Positions 3,050 through 46,598 of a DNA stretch of 46,598 bases are shown piece after piece; within the stretch, counting starts at the first letter, position 1; the number at the start of each line of letters is the position of its first letter. This DNA comes from an uncultured bacterium (GTDB lineage: Bacteria; Atribacterota; Atribacteria; Atribacterales; Caldatribacteriaceae): contig CALAIW010000039.1 of assembly GCA_937922705.1 (NCBI GenBank), forward strand, positions 1 to 46,598, written 5' to 3'. The notes beneath the pieces were generated by a model. That model made no database searches and was not told the DNA's origin. It saw nothing but the letters and a program-made list of their open reading frames with translations. A program made the translations under genes and the position numbers.

Positions 3050-3622
3050 CTAAGCCAGGAAGGCGGTAAAAACCTCTTTGAGGAACTCTCTATCCTCCTC
3101 GGTTACAGTACGGCCTTCCCTAATTTCCTCCATACAGTACCCCCCAATACTAGAGGTAACAACTCGAAGCAAAGTATCTCCAGAAATCCTTCTTCCCGTT
3201 CTTGTGGTGATCTCTCCGATTTTCTCTGCTACTCTCTTCCGAAGGTCATGAAGCTTTCGAACAATCTCTTGAAAGTACCTGCAGGCCTCCTCGTGCGAGA
3301 GGAGGTCAAATGCAGCACGCTGAAAAACAACAAAAAGGTCACGCTTCTGAGAGAAAAAGTCACAGTAACAATCGATGAGCTTTGAAATAGTCTCTTGGGG
3401 ATTTCCCCTCACGAGATTACCCTCTAAAATTGTAGCAAGCTCTTCAAGAACCTCGCGCACAATCTCCATAAGGAGGTCCAACTTGCTCTCAAAGTAATAG
3501 TATATTGTGGACTTCTTTATCCCTGAGAGATGGGCCACATCCTCAAGAGTAGCATCAAAAAAACTCTTCTCAGCGAAAACCTTCTTTGCCGCTTCAAGAA
3601 TCTTTTGCCTCGTTTCTTCCAA
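3050..3622 (-). CDS. TetR/AcrR family transcriptional regulator
   Basis: The N-terminal 50 residues form a TetR helix-turn-helix (KILEAAKKVFAEKSFFDATLEDVAHLSG, then KKSTIYYYFESK, given here in parts). The rest is the variable helical ligand and dimer domain. The frame opens at TTG 3635-3637, overlapping the stop of the barrel gene, but a second TTG at 3620-3622 has GAGGTGG upstream at good spacing, so 190 residues is preferred. It is encoded inside the operon it presumably represses: a TetR-style palindrome lies at the operon head (8483-8496). The ligand is unknown; a substrate of the neighbouring MMPL exporter is the natural guess. Confidence 0.88.
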   Translation of the reverse strand: MEETRQKILEAAKKVFAEKSFFDATLEDVAHLSGIKKSTIYYYFESKLDLLMEIVREVLEELATILEGNLVRGNPQETISKLIDCYCDFFSQKRDLFVVFQRAAFDLLSHEEACRYFQEIVRKLHDLRKRVAEKIGEITTRTGRRISGDTLLRVVTSSIGGYCMEEIREGRTVTEEDREFLKEVFTAFLA

Positions 3623-3633
3623 ATTCCACCACC

Positions 3634-4902
3634 TCAAAAGCTGTACTTTACCTCAAGAGATACCTCCTCCCCGATGCTTCCAAGCTTGCTCTCCGGCGCA
3701 CCTTGAGAAACAGTATACGCAAAGGAGATATTCCAGTTATCCTTTGGCTTATATTCTGTCCCAAAGACCCATACCGCACTTCCGTCTTCCAAACTTGTTA
3801 CCCAATTGGCAAAGGGTTTCCACTTTCCATCTTTGCTTTGCCAGTCAACGTGCACATATCCGTAAGGCGAGACCTTTTCTCCCTCTTCCCAGAGATTTCC
3901 AAGAAGGTACGCAATACTTGCGTATGTGTTGTTCCAGGAGTAGTCGAGCCCAAGACTTACCTTCCAGTAGGGTACATCAAAGATCGGAACCGAGATTGTC
4001 TCGCCTTGTGGAAGCATTACCATGTTTACCCATCGCTCCGGAACAACCCAAGCTACATCGCCTCGGAGTGTTAGACCTTCTACTCCTGCAATTGTTCCCT
4101 GAAACTCAAGCCCCAAAATCGACCTTCTAGGGTACCCAGAACGGACCTGGACATTCCAGGACCCTTCCGGAAGCACAGAAATGACCGTCTCCTTTGGGTA
4201 AGCGGAGAGGAAATACCCTTCGATGTAGCTTAAGGCAATATCGAAAGAACCAAGGGATCCCCGAGCCCTAAGTGCCCAGATAGGAGAACCAAAACCTACC
4301 GAAGGCTCTTCTTTTGTGATAACCACATCGGTTCTCTCAGGAACAACACCAAAAGGAAGAAGCGAAAATACCAATGATTGTTTCTCGACAAACTCAGGAA
4401 TAAAATGGGCCACAAAACGAGGCTGGTAGAAAAATTCAAGTGACCAGGTATCGCTTAAATACCATTCAAAATCAAGAGCTGGAACAGGGATTTTTTCCTC
4501 AAACATAGTCCTACTGAGACTTCGAGAAAAAGGCCGGGGATTGAGAACATCCACAGGGCTCATAATGTCTGAAGCCCCCCAAGTCATCTCAAGGAGACCA
4601 ACCCGGAAATCCGTTGCTTCCCAGGGGGCTTGAACTCCTTGGAGACTTATCTCCCGTATCCTAAAGGGGCGAATGTTATTCTCGTCCTGGTATTTTAGAA
4701 GGAGCTCCGCGTTGCCAAAGTACTTTTCACTGAGAGATACCGTTGAAGAGAGGTTCACTACTATACCATAATCGAAATCACCCTCTGGAAAGCTATAACT
4801 CCCCCGAGCAGTTACATCCCCCCGAATCTCCAAGGCTCCAGCAGACAACCCAAAAAGGAACAAAACACCGACTATTGCTACTCCCAATGATTGCTTTACC
4901 AT
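3634..4902 (-). CDS. outer-membrane beta-barrel protein of the exporter operon
   Basis: A signal peptide of about 24 residues (VKQSLGVAIVGVLFLFGL, cut after AGA) precedes a chain dominated by alternating hydrophobic/polar strands with many aromatic residues. The last residues are EVKYSF, the terminal Phe used by the BAM machinery. This fits a transporter-type or DUF1302-like barrel of about 420 residues. GTG 4909-4911 is possible, but ATG 4900-4902 has AGGTGAT 5 bases upstream and is preferred. It lies 15 bases after the LolA-like gene and before tetR. It is the outer-membrane partner of the MMPL/LolA-like pair. Exact barrel family and cargo cannot be decided from the sequence. Confidence 0.8.
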   Translation of the reverse strand: MVKQSLGVAIVGVLFLFGLSAGALEIRGDVTARGSYSFPEGDFDYGIVVNLSSTVSLSEKYFGNAELLLKYQDENNIRPFRIREISLQGVQAPWEATDFRVGLLEMTWGASDIMSPVDVLNPRPFSRSLSRTMFEEKIPVPALDFEWYLSDTWSLEFFYQPRFVAHFIPEFVEKQSLVFSLLPFGVVPERTDVVITKEEPSVGFGSPIWALRARGSLGSFDIALSYIEGYFLSAYPKETVISVLPEGSWNVQVRSGYPRRSILGLEFQGTIAGVEGLTLRGDVAWVVPERWVNMVMLPQGETISVPIFDVPYWKVSLGLDYSWNNTYASIAYLLGNLWEEGEKVSPYGYVHVDWQSKDGKWKPFANWVTSLEDGSAVWVFGTEYKPKDNWNISFAYTVSQGAPESKLGSIGEEVSLEVKYSF

Positions 4903-4917
4903 CGATATCACCTACGC

Positions 4918-5679
4918 TTACAGTGTCGGACGCTGTATTGTACGGACACTGAAGAAATCTTCTGGTAGGGGGATATCCTCTTCAATAGAGCTTGCCTCCA
5001 TAATAGTAGCGTGATTTTCTTTCACGTCTTTCAGGGAGAGTTTAAGAATTTGAATGCTCCCATCCTCTTTTTCCCGAATTTCATGCACTTCAAGGACTTT
5101 CCAGAGATTTCCGGAGGCGTCAAAAAACTCTATCTTTTTGAAGTAAAACTTTTCCTTATCTACAACCATGATAAGTCTCCCGTACTTTGAGTCCGATTTT
5201 TTCGGGGTAAGCTCAAGATAGTAATTTGCTTCGTCCTCTCCCTGGAGAGCGCTCTCATAATCTTCTTTCCCATATCCCGCCGAAAGGTCATCGTAGCTGA
5301 AGTCGGTTCCCATAAACTTCTCACTCTTGCTCGAACCGGCGATGAGGCGAACCTTTTTATACGCAGGCATGTAAAGGTAAATTTTTTCTCCATTTCGAAG
5401 ACTCAAAAGCGTGACTCCTTTCACATCAGCAGGACTTAAAAAGCGGAAAATAACAGAAGTTTTGTCATCGCCTTCATCTTTTAAATACATGACCATTTCT
5501 CGAGTTTCCTCTTTTCCTGAAGCATCAATAAGGATGATTTTCCCAACCGTCTTTTGAGTTGTAAACTGCGTACGTCGAGCCTCCACTTCGTCGAGAATTT
5601 CTTGAGCGGTGAGAGCAAAAACATTCCTACCTCCCAAAAGGAACACAAAGAGAAGACATACTAGAAGGAATCGCTTCAT
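4918..5679 (-). CDS. LolA-like outer-membrane lipoprotein-sorting family protein
   Basis: 253 residues with a signal peptide (KRFLLVCLLFVFLLGGRNVFA) and then the family's opening TAQEILDEVEARR. The body holds the typical YLKDEGDDKTSVIFRFLSP, a KIYLYMPAYKKVRLI stretch, GTDFSYDD and ELTPKK, which match the LolA-like family often named outer-membrane lipoprotein-sorting protein (PF17131). These proteins probably carry lipid or a lipidated cargo across the periplasm for MMPL-type exporters. The start ATG follows GGAGG and overlaps the exporter stop by 4 bases (ATGA), so the two are translationally coupled. It is not the canonical LolA of the Lol pathway. Confidence 0.85.
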   Translation of the reverse strand: MKRFLLVCLLFVFLLGGRNVFALTAQEILDEVEARRTQFTTQKTVGKIILIDASGKEETREMVMYLKDEGDDKTSVIFRFLSPADVKGVTLLSLRNGEKIYLYMPAYKKVRLIAGSSKSEKFMGTDFSYDDLSAGYGKEDYESALQGEDEANYYLELTPKKSDSKYGRLIMVVDKEKFYFKKIEFFDASGNLWKVLEVHEIREKEDGSIQILKLSLKDVKENHATIMEASSIEEDIPLPEDFFSVRTIQRPTL

Positions 5680-8456
5680 AGAGAAGAAACCTCCCTTTTC
5701 TTTAAATTTTCGTTCCCAAGGTATTCTTCAAGATGGAGCAAAAGTGAAAGAGCTATAAACGTGTAAAACACTCCAAGAAGAAGTACCGTGGCCACAAGAG
5801 AACCAAAAATCCGCAACATGTGGATTCTGGAAAGGGCCATAACGTAAGAGCCCCCAGCGACTCCCAAGGCATTAAGCAAAATGCCTCTTCCCGTATTGAG
5901 CAGAGTTGCTCTCAGAGCTTGAGAGCCAGAGTTAGTAGCTATCTCTTTGTACCATCGAGCTGAGAAATGAATGGCGTAATCAATACCGGCGCCAATGGCA
6001 ATGCTTGCCACCATAAGAGTGGCCACATTCAGGGGAATTTCGAACCATCCCATGATGCCAAAAGACGTAGCTACAGTAAGAAGAATGGGAACCATGGCAA
6101 TACTTGCTCGGCGTAGGGAAGCAAGTTGCAGCAAAAGGAGACCAAAAACAATGGCAAAAGCCAAAATCATGCTTTTTGCCTGTTGGCTGAAGAGCATTTC
6201 ATTCACACGGTTACTGATGATGGGAGTCCCTGTAATTCGGTACGCAACGGTAATATCACCCTCCTTGTCCTCAACGTATGCCACTTCATCAAGAATCTCA
6301 TAAAGGGCAAAATCGCATTCTTTTCCTAATTCCTTTCCCTGGAGTTTCTCAAGCTTCGAGCGCAACGCCTCCACTTTTTCCCGTTTGGCAACTCGTTCAA
6401 GAGAAATTGCAAGCACCTCTCCAAGATATGAAGCACTTTCCGAATCAAGACCAAAATCTTCTTCGAGGGCTTCTCCAAAAGAAATCCCTCTCGCCAGAGC
6501 CCGGGCAAGGGTTTCTTGAACAACCTCCATATCAAGACCGAGGTCCTCTATCTCAAGCTGAGCATCACGAGTAACTTTAGCGAGAAAAGAAGGATCCTGG
6601 GTTACAAAGTCCTGCCATGGTTTCCCAAGGAATTCGCTAACGATTTCTTGGACAGTATTGGGGGGAAGTGAAACCCCAAAAAGGATAAGATCGTCAACAA
6701 TCATTTTCACTAGAGCATCTCGCGCAGGAGCACTATCAAGAGGGACTTTTTTTACACGCTTTGGGCGATTGGCAAGGAACTCCCTTGCTTCCTCAAGTTC
6801 CTTTTTCAGTTCTGCTGATGTTGTCTCTCCAGCCCTAAATTCAATTATTGTTTCTCGTTCATCTTCAGAGATTCTCCCTTGAAGGTACTCACTATCCTTC
6901 ACAAAGAACCAAAGGTTCTGGATTTTCTCCTCCTCATCAGGTATTGCTCGCCATCCCTCCATAGCCTCGTTAAGATCAAGTAAAAATGAAGCAAGAGAAG
7001 AAGGGTCCTGGAAGTTGTGAAACCGCTTTAAGTACTGGGTAATACGGACCATCTCTCGAAGCACAAAAGGGTCTTTAAGATTTTCTGTCGTTACACAGAG
7101 ATAATTGTAGTCCGTACTCCCAAAACGGTTCTTAAAATATTCGACAAGTTTCGTTATCGGATGTTCCTCTCCCATTTGCATTCGGATGGTAGTTTCTACC
7201 CTGATTCTTGGAATGCCTGCGCAGAGAAGTAGCGTAACCACCACTAGAAAGACCAAAACAGTGCGTTTCCGGTGTAGCAAGGAATGGCTCAAGAAGAGAA
7301 GGAAACGATGAAAGTAATCTCTTTGCTTTCCCTGAGGATTTTTGTTCGGAGTATTCTGACGAACGGGAAAAGCCGCATAAAGCGCTCCAAGAGAAAACGT
7401 TGCGAGAACCATACCAAAAAGGACACCCAAAGCAGCATAAAGACCGAAATCAGAAACAGGTCGGATTGCAGCAGAAAGAAGCGAGAGAAATCCACCCATC
7501 GTGGTAAGGGCACTCATGAGGATAGGCAAAAAGACACCTCTCAGAGTCCGCGTCACTGCTTGTGTGTTTCCAGCAAGGGCATACTCTTCATGGTACCGAT
7601 TGATGAAATGAACCCCGTAAGCACTGACGAGAGACAAAAGCAACACTGGGAGTGATGCGGAAATAACTGTAAAGGATTTTCCCAGAAACATTGCTACCCC
7701 TATGGTCCACACAGCAGCAAGAAGGGCAATCACTATCGGAAGAATCATCCCTCGAATGTTTCTGAATCCCCAAAAGAGTATGACAAGAAGCACTCCTCCT
7801 GCTACAGGGGTCAAAAAACGCATATTCCTCTGTGCATCTTTTGACATTTCATCCACGATTATACGAGCGCCAAAAAGGGTTACCTGTACACCCTGGGGGA
7901 CCATCTCACGTACAACTCGCTCCACATCATGGATAGCCTTGCTTTGATCAGCAGTGTCGAAGAAAGAAACAAAAATGACCGTACCTTTGCCGTCAGGAGT
8001 GATAATCTTCCCCCAGACAAGGTCATTAGCTTTAAGGCGTTCTCTAAGATCCCGTGCCTCTTCAATACTTGTTGGTAAGGCCTCAACGATTTCTCGGACT
8101 TCTACACCATACTCTGTGGCTACAATCTCCGGCATGTTGGTGAGTGCGGTAACTCCTTGAACAGCAGGGAGACTCTTTATACTCTCAGCTACTCTCTGGA
8201 GAAGAAGGAGATTTTCAGGGGTGAAAAGGTCATCAAATTCTAAAGCTACGATGACGCTCTTCTTCTGGAAGCCCGAAAACTTTTCTTCTAGGGAATTGTA
8301 AAAGGAGATTTCTGGATCATCTTCTGGAAGATACTTGGTGATATCATCATCAAAACGGACGTCTCTGAGTTTCCAAAGAAAAAGAAGAGTCAAGAAAACA
8401 GTTATTCCAAGAATAGGCCAAGGATGCCTTTCAATCCAGCGAAAGAGACGTTCCAT
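5676..8456 (-). CDS. RND superfamily MMPL-type exporter
   Basis: A 926-residue inner-membrane protein. One membrane segment near residues 13-30, a large periplasmic loop, a bundle of five segments near 215-370, then a second segment, loop and bundle (about 390-910): the duplicated MMPL/RND layout with sterol-sensing-like bundles. The second periplasmic domain is long and acidic, rich in coiled-coil-like EEAREF and LEKLQ stretches. Relatives (HpnN, MmpL) move lipids or hydrophobic molecules using the proton gradient. It heads an operon with a LolA-like periplasmic protein and an outer-membrane barrel, so an envelope-spanning lipid or hydrophobic-molecule exporter is likely. ATG follows GGGGGTGGGG. 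Substrate not predictable. Confidence 0.9.
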   Translation of the reverse strand: MERLFRWIERHPWPILGITVFLTLLFLWKLRDVRFDDDITKYLPEDDPEISFYNSLEEKFSGFQKKSVIVALEFDDLFTPENLLLLQRVAESIKSLPAVQGVTALTNMPEIVATEYGVEVREIVEALPTSIEEARDLRERLKANDLVWGKIITPDGKGTVIFVSFFDTADQSKAIHDVERVVREMVPQGVQVTLFGARIIVDEMSKDAQRNMRFLTPVAGGVLLVILFWGFRNIRGMILPIVIALLAAVWTIGVAMFLGKSFTVISASLPVLLLSLVSAYGVHFINRYHEEYALAGNTQAVTRTLRGVFLPILMSALTTMGGFLSLLSAAIRPVSDFGLYAALGVLFGMVLATFSLGALYAAFPVRQNTPNKNPQGKQRDYFHRFLLFLSHSLLHRKRTVLVFLVVVTLLLCAGIPRIRVETTIRMQMGEEHPITKLVEYFKNRFGSTDYNYLCVTTENLKDPFVLREMVRITQYLKRFHNFQDPSSLASFLLDLNEAMEGWRAIPDEEEKIQNLWFFVKDSEYLQGRISEDERETIIEFRAGETTSAELKKELEEAREFLANRPKRVKKVPLDSAPARDALVKMIVDDLILFGVSLPPNTVQEIVSEFLGKPWQDFVTQDPSFLAKVTRDAQLEIEDLGLDMEVVQETLARALARGISFGEALEEDFGLDSESASYLGEVLAISLERVAKREKVEALRSKLEKLQGKELGKECDFALYEILDEVAYVEDKEGDITVAYRITGTPIISNRVNEMLFSQQAKSMILAFAIVFGLLLLQLASLRRASIAMVPILLTVATSFGIMGWFEIPLNVATLMVASIAIGAGIDYAIHFSARWYKEIATNSGSQALRATLLNTGRGILLNALGVAGGSYVMALSRIHMLRIFGSLVATVLLLGVFYTFIALSLLLHLEEYLGNENLKKREVSSL

Positions 8457-43383: not shown

Positions 43384-44289
43384 TCATTTTCTCGGAAACG
43401 CTCGTTCATAGGATTCACGTAAAAGCCTTCGATTGACATGGGTATATACTTGCGTTGTCGCAATGTCGCTATGTCCTAGGAATTCTTGAACTACCCGCAG
43501 TTCTGCACCTCCTTCAAGAAGATGTGTTGCAAAAGTATGCCGGAGTGTATGGGGGGTAATGTGCTTGCGTATACCTGCCTGAAGGGCATATCGTTTTACC
43601 ATATTCCATACACTCTGACGGCTTAAAGGTTTCCCACTGGGACCACTGACAAAAATATACCTACTTTTTTTGCCCCTGAGAAGAAGGTTTCTCGCTCTAT
43701 TAAGGTACTCGAGGAGGGCTTCCTTTGCTCTCTCCCCAAAAGGAACAATACGCTCTTTAAATCCTTTCCCCCAAAGCCTAAGCATTTGCTCTTCAAGGTC
43801 AAGGTGCTGAAACTCAAGAAAGACAACCTCACTTACCCTAAGACCACTCGAGTACATAAGTTCAAGAATCGCTCGGTCACGAACACCAGAAGGTTTCGTC
43901 ACATCACAGGAAGCAATGAGAGCTTCTACTTCTTCAACCGTCAAAACTTCAGGAAGATGTCTCTTGATGCGTGGAGTATCAAGAAGTTTTGCCAGGTTCT
44001 CTCGAGCTACCTTTTCCCGAACAAGGAAACGAAAAAAGGTACGAAGCGCTGAGATACGGCGCGCAAGGGTTGTTGCCTCAAGTCCAGCAGAGGACTCGTG
44101 CTCCACGAAAGCTTCAAGAGTGTCCAAAGTTACCAAGCTAAAATCCTCTACCCTACATTCTTTAAGGAAGCGAAGGAAACTTGCTACATCTTGGCGATAT
44201 GCAAGAATCGTATTCTCCGCCACACGTCGCTCCCAGAAGAGAAAGTTAAGAAAAGCTTCAAGGTACTCTTCAGGCCGAGGATTGGACAC
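43384..44289 (-). CDS. xerD: XerC/XerD tyrosine recombinase
   Basis: 301 residues: SAM-like N-terminal DNA-binding domain (NFLFWERRVAENTILAYRQD in outline) and catalytic domain with SSGLRVSEV (first Arg), a Lys in the beta-hairpin, HTLRHTFATHLL (His-Arg) and LGHSDIATTQVYTHV (His and nucleophile Tyr). The complete catalytic set is present. Length and sequence fit the chromosome-dimer-resolving XerD/XerC rather than a phage integrase, and it sits in a housekeeping operon between lgt and the phosphorylase. GTG start overlapping lgt by 20 bases. Confidence 0.93.
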   Translation of the reverse strand: MSNPRPEEYLEAFLNFLFWERRVAENTILAYRQDVASFLRFLKECRVEDFSLVTLDTLEAFVEHESSAGLEATTLARRISALRTFFRFLVREKVARENLAKLLDTPRIKRHLPEVLTVEEVEALIASCDVTKPSGVRDRAILELMYSSGLRVSEVVFLEFQHLDLEEQMLRLWGKGFKERIVPFGERAKEALLEYLNRARNLLLRGKKSRYIFVSGPSGKPLSRQSVWNMVKRYALQAGIRKHITPHTLRHTFATHLLEGGAELRVVQEFLGHSDIATTQVYTHVNRRLLRESYERAFPRK

Positions 44290-45025
44290 GCTTCCTAAGC
44301 ACTCCTTTCAGGACAAGGGCGAAAAGAATAATCCCAAGGCACGCGGCCTGACCCAAGGTGAAAACACCCAAAACGGCGAATGGTTCGTCCCGCAAGTATT
44401 CGATAAGGAATCGGGCAACTCCATAGAGCACAAGATAGTCAAGGAAAAGCTCTCCCTTAAACCACCGTGACTTCTCAATTCGAAGGAGTACGAAGAGGAT
44501 AATGAGCGAATACCCGATGGCATATATCTGTGTGGGGTAACGAAACCCTTCAAGATGAGGAAACTTCACACCAAGGGGAAAAACGGAGAAAGGGGAAATC
44601 CGACCATAGCAGCACCCGTTGAGAAAACATCCAATACGAGCAACAGCATACCCCAAAGCAAGAGGTGGAGCAAAAAGGTCAAAAAAAACCGCAAGTTTAT
44701 ACCGTTTCAAGTGAAGGTACGGAACAGTAAGCAAAATAGCCCCTAAAACTCCACCGTAAAAGGTCAAGCCACCCTCCCGAAAAGAGAGAATATGCAAGGG
44801 ATAACGTCGGTAATACTCAAGGTGAAGAAGAACATAGGCAAACCGCGATCCCAAAACAGCCCCAATAATACAAAGTGACGCTGCCTCCACAACACTTTCT
44901 GGGGAAACACCTAACTGCAGAGCCCTCCGAATAGCAAAGAGGATACCTATAAGAAAGGCAATCCCAAGTAGAACTCCATAGGAGTACACTGGAAAGCCAC
45001 CAATAGAAAAGAGAATACGGTACAT
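44270..45025 (-). CDS. lgt: prolipoprotein diacylglyceryl transferase
   Basis: 251 residues with seven membrane segments. FREGGLTFYGGVLGA, GYAVARIGCFLNGCCYG (family signature) and FPHLEGFRYPTQIYA are the conserved segments, and a terminal RFLIEYLRDEP is typical. It transfers diacylglycerol from phosphatidylglycerol to the lipobox Cys of prelipoproteins. The ATG overlaps the last base of the upstream stop (TAATG), so it is coupled to the TonB-like gene. Consistent with lipoproteins and a diderm envelope. Confidence 0.97.
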   Translation of the reverse strand: MYRILFSIGGFPVYSYGVLLGIAFLIGILFAIRRALQLGVSPESVVEAASLCIIGAVLGSRFAYVLLHLEYYRRYPLHILSFREGGLTFYGGVLGAILLTVPYLHLKRYKLAVFFDLFAPPLALGYAVARIGCFLNGCCYGRISPFSVFPLGVKFPHLEGFRYPTQIYAIGYSLIILFVLLRIEKSRWFKGELFLDYLVLYGVARFLIEYLRDEPFAVLGVFTLGQAACLGIILFALVLKGVLRKRVQSSA

Positions 45026-46464
45026 TAAAACACCACCTTTTCTTGAGAGTCTATAACCCCAATCCAGACTGGACCAGGAGCAACCTTCACCTCTTTCCCG
45101 TCAGGGAGATAAAAGCGCGTTTTATCTCGCATGCTCTTTTTTTCCCAAGTAACAGGAATGACCTTCCCTTCAAGGAATACAAATCCTGAACCTCTACCAA
45201 TAAAGCGAATTTCAACTCTCCCTTCTGCATCCTTTATTTTGTGCTCGGTTACTTGGATGATAACCGTGCTACAAGCAAGCTGTGCCCGTGTTTCCCCATC
45301 CCGATGTGGTTCCCCATTAATAAATCGGAGATATACTCGGCGTTCAGGGTTATAGACAAACTGAACACGATAATCTCGCGTGTATCTAATCTCAACTTGA
45401 GGAGCACTTCTCCCCTCCAACGTCTCTCCCGGAGGAAGGACAGAAAACGTTGCCGAACGTATCGGACGGAGAAGACCAAGACGCTGTGCCTCCTCAAGAA
45501 GGGACGGAAAAAGAGCATAGAGATTATGCGGTGGACGCCGATCTTTCACTCGTTCAAAGGGGCGAAAATTTTTCTGCTCATCAATGTGGTCTACAGCAAG
45601 TTCCCGAATATACGCATAGGATTCTACACTTCCACCACTGTGGACAAGAATAGCATCGTGCTCAGATGCTTTTAAAACAAAGTACGGACGAGCACTTCGA
45701 ATGGGTCCAACACGTCCCCTGGATTGAGGGTCAAACACGGCTAAAAATCGGGTGATACCACCTTCAGTAAGCATCTCGTAGACAACACGTGCTCGCCCCA
45801 AACCATACTGGGGCCTGGCCTGGGGCGTATTTTCAATGGCAAAAGCGAAAGGCCTTTGAGTAAAAGGAGAACGTCGCTCAAACCATCCTTCTGGAGGAAC
45901 AAGCTCCCCCGTAGCCAGCGTCTCCCCTGCCATACCTTCACTTGTTGCAAGACCTTCCTCAGCAAGACGGGCAAGAAGGTTTGACTTTCCCTCCTCTTCA
46001 AAAAGACCACGCACAGTTGCTTCTGCTTCAGGTCCTTCCCACTGCATCCGCTCTTCGACTTGGAGCTCTTCCCCAGGGGTGAAGACTTTTTCTCCCGAGG
46101 GCGCAGCTTCCTCAAAAGCACTCTCAGTTTTTGGAAGGTCCACCGGGGGCTTAGGAATTCGAACTTGTTGCCGCTCCTGTTCTACCTTCGCAGCAAGCTC
46201 ACTCTGTATCTTTGGTTGCAAAGGCTCCTCCGCCTTAAGTTCCTCGGGAGGTTGAAGTTCCGCACGGGTAACCTCTTGAGGTAGAACACTCCGAGGCGCT
46301 TCTTTCGCAGGAATCTCCATAAGCTCTACAACCACAGGCTTCTCTTCTCCCTTCGTTACCCGTATGGAGAGAAGCCACAAAGAGAAAACAGCAAGGAAGG
46401 CAACATTTACCGCAATGGAAATTGCAAGGGAAATAGACCATACACGCCTTTCGTTATAAACCAC
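45025..46464 (-). CDS. TonB-like anchor fused to a DUF3048 domain
   Basis: 479 residues from GTG 46462-46464, one base after the exbD stop, behind GGAGG; the TTG at 46492-46494 lies within exbD. Residues 1-9 are basic, 10-34 form one membrane helix, 38-50 are VVVELMEIP-type as in TonB/TolA, 40-200 are Pro/Glu-rich and likely extended, and about 200-479 are a DUF3048 (YerB-like) domain with FAFAIENTPQARPQYGL, YEMLTEGGITRFLAVF, GPIRSARPYF and VHSGGS. In the helix, S16 and N20 fall on the S16/H20 positions of E. coli TonB. No TonB_C domain is present. Role: a periplasmic partner driven by ExbB/ExbD is inferred; DUF3048 function is unknown. Confidence 0.87.
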   Translation of the reverse strand: MVYNERRVWSISLAISIAVNVAFLAVFSLWLLSIRVTKGEEKPVVVELMEIPAKEAPRSVLPQEVTRAELQPPEELKAEEPLQPKIQSELAAKVEQERQQVRIPKPPVDLPKTESAFEEAAPSGEKVFTPGEELQVEERMQWEGPEAEATVRGLFEEEGKSNLLARLAEEGLATSEGMAGETLATGELVPPEGWFERRSPFTQRPFAFAIENTPQARPQYGLGRARVVYEMLTEGGITRFLAVFDPQSRGRVGPIRSARPYFVLKASEHDAILVHSGGSVESYAYIRELAVDHIDEQKNFRPFERVKDRRPPHNLYALFPSLLEEAQRLGLLRPIRSATFSVLPPGETLEGRSAPQVEIRYTRDYRVQFVYNPERRVYLRFINGEPHRDGETRAQLACSTVIIQVTEHKIKDAEGRVEIRFIGRGSGFVFLEGKVIPVTWEKKSMRDKTRFYLPDGKEVKVAPGPVWIGVIDSQEKVVF

Positions 46465-46465
46465 C

Positions 46466-46598
46466 CTACTCCTCCTCTCCCGGTTGAGTGGCAATGGCCA
46501 TACGTTCCACTCCAGCCCGCTTTAAGAGGTCCATGAGTTTCACCACTTTTCCATGGAGGACTTCTCGGTCAGCTTCAATGACTACTGCGACTTGGGGG
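46466..46598 (-). CDS. exbD: ExbD/TolR biopolymer transport protein, C-terminal part
   Basis: Only the last 43 residues are in the window: PQVAVVIEADREVLHGKVVK, then LMDLLKRAGVERMAIATQPG and a short acidic tail. This is the periplasmic ExbD/TolR domain end (strand, conserved aD..v.hg.vv, helix, aGv.r..iat). Its TAG at 46466-46468 precedes the TonB-like GTG by one base. The N-terminal membrane helix and, most likely, exbB lie beyond the right edge. Confidence 0.9.
   Translation of the reverse strand, partial: PQVAVVIEADREVLHGKVVKLMDLLKRAGVERMAIATQPGEEE

Follow-up and report, generated by a model that had tools for sequence, protein, structure and literature searches.

A candidate force transducer with a YerB (DUF3048) head, encoded beside ExbB/ExbD-type motor genes in Atribacterota

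The window, 46,598 nucleotides from an uncultured member of the Caldatribacteriaceae, represents contig C39 in its full length, from a genome of 1.85 Mb; its last gene but one codes for a protein with a TonB-like N-terminus and a C-terminal DUF3048 (YerB) domain. The transducer is not confined to one contig; nearly all Atribacterota carry such a fusion. With a probability of roughly 70%, we take it to be a proton-motive-force-driven force transducer with a YerB head, belonging to an Atribacterota-wide trans-envelope machine with a probable task in the envelope or cell wall. Gene structure, conservation, co-occurrence and domain folds form the observed supporting layer of this reading; from it we infer that the transducer binds the motor and transmits force, as well as its target and physiological role.

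Gene layout and distribution of the fusion

All window features of this locus lie on the minus strand. The transducer gene (45025..46464; orthologues in 42 of 46 Atribacterota genomes) codes for 479 amino acids and starts with GTG, a choice supported by the relatives, which begin at the same place; direct reading of the sequence places a ribosome-binding site, GGAGGA, at 46470..46475. Upstream, the 3' end of an exbD/tolR-type gene (46466..46598; PF02472 positions 90–127, E 4.4e-7), comprising the last 43 amino acids, is truncated by the contig end. Its TAG occupies 46468–46466 and is followed by the single base 46465 and the transducer GTG at 46464, i.e. exbD ends one base ahead of the transducer gene, as had been stated in the preliminary description. 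The best named relatives of the window genome are from Candidatus Caldatribacterium, with 74–77% identity of the transducer protein, which places the genome in Atribacterota. On the downstream side, the stop codon of the transducer and the start codon of lgt (44270..45025; PF01790, E 3e-51) overlap by one base at 45025. The coupling to lgt proposed earlier holds for the window, but only part of the phylum has it: lgt is absent beside the fusion in families f5–f7 and in parts of f3, and is a neighbour rather than a constant part of the locus. The tight spacing of exbD and fusion is relaxed in family f7 (L058, L060, L080, L081, L084, L104), where the gap between the two genes is about 110–460 bp. 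Frameshifts interrupt the fusion gene of L037 (G003:C40), probably as a result of sequencing error.

Homologous fusions, the question left by the preliminary description, are present among the relatives: the long fusion protein was found in 42 of 46 Atribacterota genomes of at least 70% completeness, and one additional genome of this set has a short DUF3048 protein only. Within a first set of 31 relatives, 27 genomes had both the fusion and ExbD, and the other four had neither; these four are metagenome-assembled genomes of 60–90% completeness, so that the absences may be true or reflect gaps. Of 43 fusion loci read directly, five were excluded from the exbD count because their contigs start inside or just before the fusion; in 38 of 38 loci whose contig extends far enough, exbD lies directly upstream. 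The gene order TPR–exbB–exbD–transducer is retained as far as the contigs extend. About 235 genomes sampled outside the phylum yielded DUF3048 in six, mostly as lipoprotein-like or secreted proteins, and no ExbB or ExbD was found within about 5 kb of these six genes. An additional short DUF3048 protein (about 312 amino acids) with an ordinary N-terminal signal is encoded in L061, L062, L063 and L105 of families f5 and f7; it occurs without exbBD and lacks the PPHN motif, having GGWIN instead.

Helix, motor-box-like segment, linker and head

According to its AlphaFold2 model, the window protein consists of one helix (residues 5–33), a mostly disordered linker, and a confidently predicted domain from about residue 200. 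The transmembrane helix (46366..46452), assigned from the model and from conservation, contains S16 (46417–46419) and N20 (46405–46407), and is followed by the motor-box-like segment VVVELMEIP (residues 44–52; 46309..46335) and a Pro/Glu-rich linker (residues 53–199; 45868..46308) with pLDDT values below 50 over most of its length and helices at about residues 145–178. With numbering from the GTG start, an ungapped comparison places S16, N20 and P52 on S16, H20 and P52 of what we take to be the sequence of E. coli TonB, in line with the correspondence noted before for the first two positions. In all 43 orthologue N-termini the pattern S-x3-N/H is kept, with Ser in 43, Asn in 42 and His in one (L056), which excludes a chance match of a TonB-like helix. 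In an alignment of 40 sequences, S16 is the sole invariant residue of the helix, N20 and S12 are the sole near-invariant ones, and E50 and P52 of the VVVELMEIP segment are invariant. The hydrophobic segment behind the helix is likewise conserved and terminates in E-[ILV]-P at the TonB distance, N20 being separated from the proline by 32–35 residues vs. 32 in TonB. The remainder of the SHLS motif (Leu27, Ser31) is not kept, position 27 being occupied by F, I, A, L or V and position 31 by W, I, L or T.

A profile built from residues 1–60 was searched against 714 ORF N-termini and the presumed sequence of E. coli TonB. Three canonical Atribacterota TonB proteins ranked directly below the fusions (E 0.002–0.013) and E. 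coli TonB (E 0.054) came out narrowly ahead of the first decoy (E 0.074), while two further canonical Atribacterota TonB proteins scored like decoys.

Structural work on the Ton system gives these positions a context. S16 and H20 of TonB contact Ser34 and Trp38 of ExbB (PMC12215075), and VVVELMEIP occupies the position of the TonB and HasB segments that engage the ExbD dimer (PMC10771500). That Asn can replace His20 in E. coli TonB, as the preliminary description stated, and can do so fully, is supported by the title of Swayne and Postle 2011 as cited in PMC8928145. The idea that a TonB-type helix would fit inside the ExbBD pore, however, conflicts with the structure, because the pore is occupied by the ExbD helices and TonB makes contact with a single ExbB from outside (PMC12215075).

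Pfam searches (hmmscan) of the transducer gave matches above cut-off to DUF3048 domains only, namely PF11258 (45478..45861; 142.9 bits, E 1e-41) and PF17479 (DUF3048_C; 45061..45396; 99.4 bits, E 2e-28); neither TonB_C (PF03544) nor a vWA head was found by this search, and the description of DUF3048 standing in place of TonB_C at the C-terminus is upheld. When the model of the DUF3048 region was compared with the PDB, the sole significant match was YerB (2PSB), with a TM-score of 0.85 by target length. Twelve polar or aromatic residues (R204, N212, Q219, E230, E234, R239, R256, S257, R259, H275, R305, W440) are invariant in all 40 fusions compared and in 10 free DUF3048 proteins, B. subtilis YerB included, suggesting that the head retains whatever site YerB has. 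The full two-domain fold and all invariant polar residues are thus shared with the YerB lipoproteins, which differ in having a lipid anchor and no link to a proton-motive-force motor. In the literature searched, DUF3048 is mentioned only in a report of YerB as a lipoprotein whose function is called unknown (PMC13068155).

Motor, TPR partner and resemblance to Tol

Since the window contig ends inside exbD, exbB was read in relatives. The motor proteins match families PF01618 and PF02472 and have the channel Thr and the ExbD Asp. All 33 fusion-linked ExbB proteins contain the Ser of TM1 and the motif GLLGTVxGM, and all 35 fusion-linked ExbD proteins, full-length in relatives, contain the proton-binding Asp motif TPxxD; the TM1 residue equivalent to W38 is not Trp. 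NCBIfam scores lie nearer to TolQR than to ExbBD, although all are below the equivalog cut-offs (TolQ, 98 vs. 221 bits; TolR, 76.5 vs. 127; ExbB, 73.5 vs. 206). In a tree, the fusion-linked ExbB proteins form one group that is separate from canonical Atribacterota ExbB and broadly follows the families, which fits vertical inheritance, several inner forks being weak and the outgroup branch long.

In the window genome, the ExbD beside the fusion is the sole ExbD. A second exbD in G001 and G005 was considered as a possible partner of another transducer, and this was rejected: it belongs to a 100% identical copy of exbBD that precedes the TPR gene, and the interval contains no other transducer. 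Such copies with 100% DNA identity flank the TPR gene in L035 (397–1469 and 5089–6161) and in L039 (660–1807 and 5408–6555); the duplication spans two genera, and a third (L040) has a 125-bp remnant (99%) at the contig start. The complete identity of the copies suggests gene conversion or recent duplication, and the repeat is probably the reason why contigs break inside exbD here and in several other genomes.

The TPR partner, encoded upstream of exbB in relatives and thus beyond the end of this contig, has about 1,200 amino acids and a probable signal peptide. On the sequence level, its first domain gave only weak matches (TolB_N, below cut-off, in 3 of 15 members, CsgG in two, LpoB in one), and a search of the TolB_N profile against PDB sequences gave no match to it. 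Its AlphaFold2 model (pLDDT 91) matched TolB, FlgT, LpoB, PelC and GNA1162, each with a Foldseek probability of 1.00. No β-propeller was present among the families listed for this protein. The sole OmpA-domain match in the window genome, tried as a candidate for Pal, is MotB, encoded beside motA, fliL and fliM.

With a motor nearer to TolQR and a TPR protein of TolB_N/LpoB-type fold, the operon is described better as Tol-like than as Ton-like. It looks like a Tol system that lacks Pal and the canonical TolA tip. Features shared with Tol-Pal are the motor, which scores best against TolQ/TolR, a transducer built from a transmembrane segment, linker and globular head, and an exported partner that joins a TolB_N-type fold with TPRs, cf. 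TolB and CpoB; the sub-equivalog TolQ/TolR scores, the DUF3048 head, the unseen β-propeller and the absence of Pal set it apart. With TonB-ExbBD it shares the helix with S16 and His or Asn at position 20, the motor-box-like segment, the Pro-rich linker and a motor of the ExbB/ExbD family, but the Atribacterota operon has an exported TPR protein and no TonB_C, and most of the genomes have no TonB-dependent receptor.

The closest precedent is found in the vWA force transducers, in which a vWA domain stands in place of TonB_C (Williams-Jones et al. 2025, PMC12204202). These proteins likewise have a transmembrane helix with an SHLS-type motif, a Pro-rich linker and a C-terminal domain other than TonB_C, have a motor box where the Atribacterota protein has its motor-box-like segment, and are encoded in operons of the order TPR, tolQ-like, tolR-like, transducer. 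They occur in Proteobacteria, PVC, Bacteroidetes and Rhodothermaota and differ in the vWA head and the His of the helix, as opposed to DUF3048 and Asn (once His) in Atribacterota. The main-text sections consulted contain no mention of DUF3048, and cite Dodsworth 2013 for TonB in Atribacteria. The earlier statement that no Ton system of this design was known needs qualifying, as the principle of exchanging the receptor domain was published, with vWA, in 2025.

Proposed machine and alternative explanations

We propose a motor, made of a pentamer of the TolQ/ExbB type and a dimer of the TolR/ExbD type, that would exploit the proton-motive force. The single transducer helix would dock via S16/N20 on the ExbB-type subunit, as does TonB via S16/H20, and VVVELMEIP may bind the periplasmic domain of the ExbD-type subunit in the manner of the TonB and HasB peptides. 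The disordered Pro/Glu linker would then transmit the pull to the YerB domain which, in place of TonB_C, would grip a target in the envelope; the TolB_N/LpoB-fold and TPR protein of about 1,200 amino acids is probably a periplasmic partner or regulator. Delivery of proton-motive force from ExbBD to DUF3048, as put forward in the preliminary description, agrees with the homologous fusions and with the lack of a TonB_C gene, whereas the delivery itself is still something that we infer. Replacement of the TonB tip by DUF3048 suggests proton-powered pulling on an envelope target other than import receptors. The most likely task would be to maintain the envelope or cell wall, in analogy to Tol-Pal/CpoB, and import of nutrients is less likely, given that DUF3048 occurs in bacteria lacking an outer membrane and that the operon codes for a TolB/LpoB-like partner with CpoB-like TPRs; "cell wall" as the target is suggested mainly by DUF3048 being a lipoprotein in such bacteria. 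More specifically, and with somewhat less than an even chance of being right, the TolQR-type motor, the YerB-headed transducer and the TolB_N-TPR protein might mechanically couple proton power to the peptidoglycan or to tethering of the outer membrane in a phylum that lacks Pal. Atribacterota are likely to have an outer membrane, since Omp85 was found in 33 of 33 genomes of at least 85% completeness.

The helix could instead be a plain membrane anchor replacing the lipid anchor of a YerB-like wall protein, with ExbBD as a mere neighbour that energises something else. A transmembrane anchor is an ordinary substitute for a lipid anchor, and elsewhere DUF3048 proteins are lipoproteins, like YerB (PMC13068155), or secreted, and come without exbBD. 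An anchor of this kind, however, does not account for Ser and Asn/His being the conserved residues of the helix, spaced as in TonB, for a motor-box-like segment at the TonB distance, or for an N-terminal profile that retrieves TonB proteins; moreover, the fusion is strictly co-present and co-absent with ExbD, and in most genomes there is no TonB_C partner. We therefore regard the plain anchor as improbable. That the motor switches rather than pulls, gating DUF3048 as an envelope enzyme or sensor, appears less probable again. A dozen polar residues (R, E, H, N, Q, S) that are invariant and common to free YerB resemble an active or ligand site, but no known catalytic fold was recognised, the sole PDB match being YerB itself; a search for an enzyme-like fold among viral models gave none either, and the long disordered linker suits transmission of force.

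We give the least credence to a nutrient-uptake Ton system in which DUF3048 replaces TonB_C in opening outer-membrane transporters. The overall architecture is TonB-like, and Omp85 and a probable outer membrane occur in the phylum, yet DUF3048 is also present in bacteria that have no outer membrane, and canonical Ton components are sparse. Profile searches of the window genome revealed neither a TonB_C gene (PF03544) nor a Plug domain of TonB-dependent receptors; TonB_C is present in 3 of 31 relatives and receptor plugs in five of 31. In G025, the single case where such a locus was read completely, a receptor, a canonical TonB (SIFFH, TonB_C) and an ExbBD of their own lie side by side at a separate locus. 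A TonB_C gene just past the contig edge is not indicated either, as the genome has none and the relatives have exbB and then the TPR gene upstream. A canonical Ton locus, consisting of a BtuB-like receptor, TonB with TonB_C, ExbB and ExbD, adjoins an ABC transporter of the FecCD type in L094 (1683–5562); the DUF3048 transducer is encoded in this Atribacterota genome too.

Our preferred reading, a YerB-headed force transducer, would have several consequences. In the literature searched, the only tips described for 5:2 proton motors of this type are TonB, TolA and, since 2025, the vWA proteins, and a phylum-wide YerB tip would be a further kind. It would also provide the first testable context for the DUF3048 family, unstudied despite the presence of 2PSB in the PDB since 2007, and a candidate for envelope management without Tol-Pal in a deep-branching phylum with two membranes. 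If the machine is indeed Tol-like, DUF3048 would represent a force-coupled module of a new kind that binds the wall or acts on it. A member of the phylum, Atribacter laminatus, has been cultured (PMC7736352).

Elsewhere in the window, reading by eye of positions 3050–8456 revealed a probable operon coding for a TetR-type regulator, a porin-like barrel, a LolA-like lipoprotein-sorting protein and an exporter of the RND/MMPL type with 926 amino acids, which may serve the export of lipids or lipoproteins at the outer membrane.
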